From positions 1 through 41,268 of the forward strand of contig CANGPA010000012.1 in assembly GCA_947455645.1 (NCBI GenBank): a DNA stretch of 41,268 nucleotides, in the 5' to 3' direction. The position numbers and the translations under genes are program-made. Origin of the DNA: Hyphomicrobiales bacterium (lineage in GTDB: Bacteria; Pseudomonadota; Alphaproteobacteria; Rhizobiales; Beijerinckiaceae). Shown in pieces: positions 14,717 to 16,043 of this stretch (positions are counted from its first letter, which is position 1; the number at the start of each line of letters is the position of its first letter). A model generated the notes under the pieces. That model did no database searches, was not told the DNA's origin, and saw only the letters and a program-made list of their open reading frames with translations.

Positions 14717-15601
14717 TCAGAATAATTTCTTTCCGAAGAAAACGCCATTTGAGCTCGTGCCGCCGCTCAACCGCGCGAGCGCTTCTTTCGCAGTCGCATT
14801 GCTCATATCAACACCGAGTGCACGATTATATGCTTCCTTGGCGGCGTCTTTGTCGCCCTTCTTTTCGTTGGCAAGACCAAGGCCAAGCCAACCATCGACC
14901 AAATCAGGGTTCACATTCAAGCATGAGTTGAAATCTTCAATCGCGGAATCATATTTGCCGAGCGCAATCAGACTTTGACCACGCGAAAGATAAGGCGCTG
15001 CGACAAAGGGATCCCGGTCGATGGCCGCATCGAAATCATTGGTGGCTTTTTTGTGCAGGTCCTGCTTTTGAAAGATAAGACCACGCGCATGATAGGCTTG
15101 TGCCGATTCAGGATTAAGTTTGATCGCCTGAGTCAAATCGGCAATCGCTTCAGGAAACTTTCCCATTGACCGATAAAGATTGCCGCGACCGAGATAGGCG
15201 GCGCCATAGGACGCGTTGGCCATGATCGCGTGGTTGAAATCATTCAGCGCCAGATCATCTTGACCTTTCTGACGATAGGTCAATGCACGATTGGTGAATG
15301 CCGCGGAATAGCCCGGCTTCAACTCAATCGCCTTCGTAAAATCTTCTTCGGCTTTGAGATATTTGCCGACACGCGCATAGGCCGCACCACGCGTATTATA
15401 CGCCGTAGCATCGCGCGGATTAGCCTCAATGACCGATGTCAGGGATTCGATATTGACCTTTGCGGTCTCTACATCCTTGTCCATTTCGGCAACCGAAATA
15501 ATCGGTGCGGGCGCATTGGTTGTCGAACACGCCGCGAGTGTCAATGCGATCAGCGTCAGCGGGACATACCGGAAAAATGCGGAGGACTTTGTCAGGATCA
15601 T
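14717..15601 (-). CDS. TPR-repeat lipoprotein
   Basis: The 294-residue protein has a lipoprotein signal peptide with lipobox LAAC (Cys25) and then about six tetratricopeptide repeats (about residues 58-275), with repeated patterns such as AYNTRGAAYARVGKYLKAEEDF and AYHARGLIF. It should be membrane-anchored and act as a protein-binding scaffold, similar in shape to NlpI, but the partner is unknown. The ATG at 15601 has GGGAG eight bases upstream. The promoter region contains five 17-bp-spaced repeats. It is convergent with pntB. Confidence 0.85.
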   Translation of the reverse strand: MILTKSSAFFRYVPLTLIALTLAACSTTNAPAPIISVAEMDKDVETAKVNIESLTSVIEANPRDATAYNTRGAAYARVGKYLKAEEDFTKAIELKPGYSAAFTNRALTYRQKGQDDLALNDFNHAIMANASYGAAYLGRGNLYRSMGKFPEAIADLTQAIKLNPESAQAYHARGLIFQKQDLHKKATNDFDAAIDRDPFVAAPYLSRGQSLIALGKYDSAIEDFNSCLNVNPDLVDGWLGLGLANEKKGDKDAAKEAYNRALGVDMSNATAKEALARLSGGTSSNGVFFGKKLF

Positions 15602-15673
15602 GGTCCAGCTCCCAATGTCTTTAGAGACAAATTAAAACACAGGATCGAATGGTAGAAAGACGTTCGAGTCGAT

Positions 15674-15750
15674 GCAAGAAACGCGCAGGAGCAAGAAACA
15701 AGTAAGAGCAAGAAACAGGTAAGAGCAAGAAACGGTATCAAGGCAAGAAA
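15674..15750. repeat. Iteron-like array: five GCAAGAAAC cores at 17-bp spacing
   Basis: The core GCAAGAAAC begins at 15674, 15691, 15708 and 15725, exactly 17 bases apart; a fifth, GCAAGAAAA, begins at 15743. The middle units also share GTAAGA in the spacer. The array fills the region between the rpsU terminator and the start of the TPR lipoprotein gene, with the nearest unit 73 bases upstream of its ATG. On the minus strand a possible -35 (TTGCAT) falls in the last unit, with TACCAT 17 bases further on. Confidence 0.85.
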
Positions 15751-15775
15751 AAGGGCGCTCCTGAAAGGAACGCCC
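15746..15775 (-). terminator. Terminator of rpsU
   Basis: Read on the minus strand, GGGCGTTCCT-TTC-AGGAGCGCCC forms a 10-bp stem (one G-U) followed by TTTTTC. It lies 31 bases after the rpsU stop. Its T-tract overlaps the last unit of the 17-bp repeat array. Confidence 0.9.
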
Positions 15776-15806: not shown

Positions 15807-16043
15807 TCAGCGCGTAAACGTCTTTGGCTTTGGCGCCGGCAGAAGGCCTTCGCGCTGCAATTTCTTGCGGGTCAACTTGCGAGCGCGACGAACGGCTTCG
15901 GCCTCTTCGCGAACGCGCTTCTCGGACGGCTTTTCATAATGGCCGCGGAGCTTCATTTCACGGAAAATGCCTTCGCGCTGCATCTTCTTCTTAAGCGCCT
16001 TCAGCGCTTGATCGACATTGTTATCACGGACGAGTACTTGCAC
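15807..16043 (-). CDS. rpsU: 30S ribosomal protein S21
   Basis: This 78-residue, very basic protein is S21 of the small ribosomal subunit: [20 protein letters not shown] at the N-terminus, then [16 protein letters not shown] and an Arg/Lys-rich tail. The start is GTG, with GGGAT about nine bases upstream; a nearby ATG at 16050 is out of frame. It stands alone with its own terminator. The 209-base gap upstream, before purK, holds no gene that I can see, only a 9-bp repeat TTCTTGAAT at 16191 and 16205. Confidence 0.97.

Follow-up and report, generated by a model that had tools for sequence, protein, structure and literature searches.

In plasmid iterons, a core sequence is conserved among direct repeats that follow one another at regular intervals. 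Repeats that adjoin a promoter element have been described in two other bacteria. In Haemophilus influenzae, the last heptamer repeat upstream of hmw1A has bases in common with the -35 box of one promoter; the copy number of the heptamer varies, and more repeats lead to less expression (PMC8262952). In Helicobacter pylori, a T-tract beside the -35 element of sabA tunes the promoter (PMC4081817).

The array analysed here lies in a stretch of 41,268 nucleotides of a Hyphomicrobiales bacterium (contig CANGPA010000012.1), which is referred to as the window. It shares with plasmid iterons the direct repeats, their conserved core, and their regular step; unlike them, it has no replication gene beside it and no plasmid match, and its site is an apparent gene promoter. 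As in hmw1A, the gene is preceded by a tandem array whose last repeat has bases in common with a -35, here a putative one; however, the hmw1A units are 7 bp long and lie between two promoters, whereas 17-bp units are present here as four copies and one at the terminator, and they have diverged. With sabA, it has in common a repeat adjoining a -35 element. The copy-number effect of hmw1A and the rheostat effect of the sabA homopolymer have been demonstrated; the resemblance of the 17-bp array of the window to both is one of anatomy. A search of the open-licence literature revealed no tandemly duplicated -35 like that proposed here, a result of little weight because '-35' with its sign is unsearchable.

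On the minus strand, the locus is ordered as rpsU, terminator, array, and TPR lipoprotein gene (Table 1). The product of the TPR gene is a predicted lipoprotein based on the N-terminal LTLAAC read by eye, and a TPR match at an E value of 0.001 or better was obtained in all 60 genomes searched, including that of the window. The terminator scan found one terminator, against a mean of 0.6 (sd 0.8) in shuffles, and is by count alone near the shuffles; 11 of the 12 genus genomes have a similar hairpin and T-run in the corresponding position.

On the plus strand, GCAAGAAAC starts at 15674, 15691, 15708, and 15725, in three steps of 17 bp, and GCAAGAAAA starts at 15743 after a last step of 18 bp. The minus-strand form of the repeat unit is GTTTCTTGC, and both flanking genes are also on the minus strand. 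The outermost copy reads TTTTTCTTGC on the minus strand, and the T-run in that copy is the terminator's own. Nine bases are identical across four copies at an even step, while the spacers differ between copies. Tandem Repeats Finder reported the region 15674–15733 with period 17, 3.5 copies, 88% matches, and a score of 85, which was the top score among its 24 rows in the window and confirmed the head-to-tail arrangement. When the window was resampled 20 times (first order), exact 9-mers at equal spacing (40 bp or less) never occurred more than two times, and the paired pattern had three matches in the genome against none for its reversed control; thus, the array exceeds chance. The copy number is given as assembled, the source genome being an assembly of 156 contigs. 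A sequence-only reading of the window had described five repeats at exact 17-bp spacing, flanked by the rpsU terminator and the TPR gene, and had taken the lack of a nearby replication gene as speaking against an origin. The spacing could be confirmed for four copies (17, 17, and 17 bp) and not for the fifth, at 18 bp. The placement was borne out, within the apparent promoter region of the TPR gene and with the fifth copy overlapping the U-tract of the terminator. Nothing points to an origin either, the adjacent genes being rpsU and the TPR lipoprotein gene. Replication iterons were rejected because a 241-bp stretch had no match in 72,556 plasmid records and no replication gene is adjacent. 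A known RNA element was also rejected, with four weak Rfam matches (E up to 1), none near the gathering score.

Table 1. Features of the locus between rpsU and the TPR lipoprotein gene (window coordinates)
Feature	Coordinates	Strand	Remarks
rpsU, ribosomal protein S21, upstream gene	15807..16043	-	Pfam PF01165, E 4.2e-21
rpsU intrinsic terminator	15748..15775	-	stem 15753-15775 and U-tract 15748-15752
Fifth copy, TTTTCTTGC, terminator-fused, 18 bp from next copy	15743..15751	-	
Copy A, GTTTCTTGC	15725..15733	-	
Copy B, GTTTCTTGC	15708..15716	-	
Copy C, GTTTCTTGC	15691..15699	-	
Copy D, GTTTCTTGC, bears putative -35	15674..15682	-	
Putative -35 hexamer TTGCAT	15672..15677	-	TTGC-N19-TA in 11/11 terminator-bearing genus genomes
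Putative -10 hexamer TACCAT, 17-nt spacer	15649..15654	-	
TPR lipoprotein gene, downstream	14717..15601	-	ORF, Pfam TPR families

Copy D, the copy nearest to the gene, contributes to a TTGCAT hexamer; 17 nt further on comes TACCAT, which precedes the start codon by 47 nt, and transcription would be expected to start near 15642. The single TTGC-N19-TA match in the gap of the window uses copy D. For copies A to C, a TA...T hexamer was sought at 16–18 nt and none was present. As the carrier of a -35, the last copy is favoured by the presence of TTGC-N19-TA in every terminator-bearing genus genome, yet the proposed promoter agrees with only 7 of 12 consensus bases, a weak match, and the promoter scan found 0 promoters at the array site. 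One other hexamer pair scores 8 of 12 but lacks TA...T. When four gaps were shuffled, TTGC-N19-TA arose in 1.0 to 6.3% of cases. Among 181 sampled upstream regions, the spacing of 19 (5) was not enriched over those of 17 (8), 18 (12), and 20 (7), and a promoter signature derived from the same regions was discarded as too weak (15 matches on each strand; TTGC in 8/15 versus 5/15). We infer that the site carrying TTGCAT and TACCAT is the working promoter of the TPR gene.

The genus set consisted of 12 genomes including that of the window, and in one of them (G001) neither terminator nor promoter was recognised by the patterns used. In each of the 11 terminator-bearing genomes, the gap from the T-run to the TPR start contains exactly one TTGC-N19-TA, although these rows share ancestry and are not independent observations. 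A stricter -10 pattern, TA..[AT], is matched in 9 of the 11, and the distance from the -10 to the TPR start is 43–51 nt in these genomes, with the starts of the relatives extrapolated from the alignment. In seven pairs compared with the window, TTGC agrees at 4/4 positions each time, while only 4 to 9 of the 19 spacer sites are alike; the -10 hexamer agrees at 5/6 positions in the four nearest relatives and at 2 to 3 of 6 in three more distant ones. Two short blocks at a fixed distance with poorly matching DNA around them may represent the trace of a sigma-70-type promoter. Further, two relatives (G004 and G011) share TTTCTTGC at the site of the putative promoter; therefore, the 'conserved core' of the array would correspond to the -35 region of the promoter.

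The exact paired pattern is present in 1 of the 12 genus genomes, the window's own. Direct reading of the gap in the 11 others revealed no array, and the ten terminator-bearing ones among them have a single site each. The distance from the T-run to the TTGC of the -35 is 6 nt in six genomes, 24 in two, 40 in two, and 75 here, and the five TTGC sites of the window lie 6, 24, 41, 58, and 75 nt from the T-run. Such distances would be expected if units were gained one after another. That 24 and 40 match the ladder was recognised only in hindsight and may be due to chance. A TPR protein tree placed the window's genome as sister to the four genomes with 24 or 40 nt (support 100/98 for the five and 97/94 for the four). 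The simplest history would be that this clade acquired units of approximately 17 bp in the interval from the terminator to the promoter. Loci L034–L052 were excluded from all counts, as L034–L040 correspond to genomes already counted and L041–L052 are at most 56% identical. In six genus species (L009–L014), the T-run of the terminator runs directly into the putative -35, as TTTTTGTTGCCC or TTTTTATTGCCC; therefore, the terminator and the next promoter touch.

GANTC, the CcrM methylation motif, could be found at 15666–15670 of the window and in the same gap in L005–L014. Each of the 11 terminator-bearing genus genomes has it between the T-run and the -10, with three different locations across the set. 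In the sample, sequence upstream of genes contains one such motif per 481 nt, and it falls in the last 100 nt of only 18% of the 181 upstream regions. Among family-level loci (L016–L033), 8 of 18 have it within the span of -160 to +45 around the extrapolated start. A GcrA gene is present in the genome (E 2.2e-53). Control of the TPR promoter by GcrA/CcrM is a possibility.

The reading that we favour, with a probability of about 0.68, is that a 17-bp segment with the -35 of the TPR lipoprotein promoter was duplicated in tandem in the lineage of the window species, giving rise to the array. The element is likely a tandem repeat over a promoter -35, and local multiplication of one promoter half, an ordinary event, is the most likely origin rather than a purpose-built landing site for a regulator. 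Slippage or unequal recombination would have produced the copies, which lie between the rpsU terminator and the TPR promoter. Copy D would still act as the -35, using TTGCAT, 17 nt, and TACCAT; the three copies further upstream (A to C) lack a -10 within usable reach; and the fifth merges into the U-tract of the terminator. The extra copies would have little function of their own beyond a longer terminator-to-promoter distance, perhaps with slight tuning of output. A further result counts against the duplication: GTTTCTTGC has 41 occurrences in the whole genome (G000) against 18 for its reversed control, and the excess persists after subtracting the 4 copies of the array. A role of GTTTCTTGC as a general promoter box was rejected, since 0 of the 26 occurrences fetched (out of 37 non-array ones) have TA...T at 16–18 nt. 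Stop-free frames of at least 200 codons contain 21 of these 26.

Other tandem arrays were sought in a 441-kb sample of the genome, of which a crude ORF call leaves about 37 kb as intergenic. Nine further rows scored 70 or more, and six of them were inspected. Two lie inside a long frame and four outside (longest stop-free runs 0, 84, 87, and 135 codons), the latter with periods of 38, 7, 18, and 18. Short intergenic tandem arrays are not rare in this genome, and four are apparently non-coding. The array at L093:14152-14312 consists of 38-bp units in 4.2 copies with stops in all six frames, and its units end in inverted CAAAATGC/GCATTTTG. A heptamer, CCTACTG, is repeated 10.4 times at L102:17284-17356 and is a candidate for length variation. 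The 18-bp array at L097:15328-15389 (consensus GCGTGACCATTATTTTTA, 3.4 copies) is preceded by a terminator-like hairpin and T-run.

Among the alternatives, a copy-number switch survives best, though it is unlikely. Similar to phase-variable promoters, slippage would alter the number of units and thereby determine how strong the TPR promoter is. The overlap of the last copy with the putative -35, as for the last heptamer of hmw1A, is consistent with such a switch, as is the variation of the terminator-to-promoter distance between species. However, the units have already diverged (88% matches), by which slippage would be lowered, and no other genus genome carries an array (12 genomes, one per species). 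Copy-number tuning of the TPR promoter would have a precedent in hmw1A.

It is improbable that the repeats form an operator array, in which a DNA-binding protein would recognise the GTTTCTTGC repeats cooperatively and regulate the TPR gene. The nine identical bases of the four evenly stepped copies and a position upstream of and over the -35 would suit a regulator. However, the multiple sites are not kept, being missing from the 11 other genus genomes, and no second paired site was found in the window's genome. A step of 17 bp is about 1.6 helix turns and sets neighbouring copies on different sides of the helix. Copies A, B, and C differ at 4 of 17 sites, all within the spacer. The chance that four random sites share some 8-base arc of a 17-base circle is 0.25, and the core and spacer pattern therefore needs no selection; for the 6-base arc actually spanned by the variable sites, the chance is 0.07. 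None of the tests run indicates selection for a multi-site array. The sequence-only reading had taken the conserved core and drifting spacers as a sign of a selected multi-site array for a protein. This is not sustained, given the single genus genome with the pattern, a core explained by the -35 in the last copy, and clustering of variable sites expected by chance at 0.25. Copy number, whose variation among close strains that reading had named as favouring a neutral repeat, differs between species, at one genome per species. Among 298 sampled family genomes, one other (G288) has a lone pair, which was dismissed as chance because the reversed control also matched 2 of the 298.

A polymerase-recycling ladder appears very improbable. 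RNA polymerase that stays on the DNA past the rpsU terminator would be caught at successive -35 copies, slide along the ladder until it reaches a -35 with a -10, and fire at that promoter. In six genus species, 6 nt separate the terminator from the -35, and the gap is bridged here by -35 copies. Single-molecule work describes bacterial RNA polymerase that slides and re-initiates after termination, which agrees with such a ladder, but this re-initiation is usually antisense (PMC6978322). In addition, all ten other terminator-bearing relatives lack any ladder. If true, polymerase recycling would couple the lipoprotein gene to rpsU. Least credible is an assembly artefact, with a wrong copy number or an array created by the assembler, for which the 156-contig state of the genome would speak, while the differing spacers and the length of the whole array (approximately 78 bp), which should lie within ordinary read length, speak against it.

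The proposed tandem duplication of the -35 segment is mostly a caution that half of a promoter, once multiplied, can look like an evenly spaced iteron array in which the core is preserved without change. The site hints that the distance from a terminator to the promoter that follows can increase stepwise, by about one repeat unit at a time. It would be of greater importance if copy number were found to vary and to set expression, or if the short distance from terminator to promoter served to couple the two genes.
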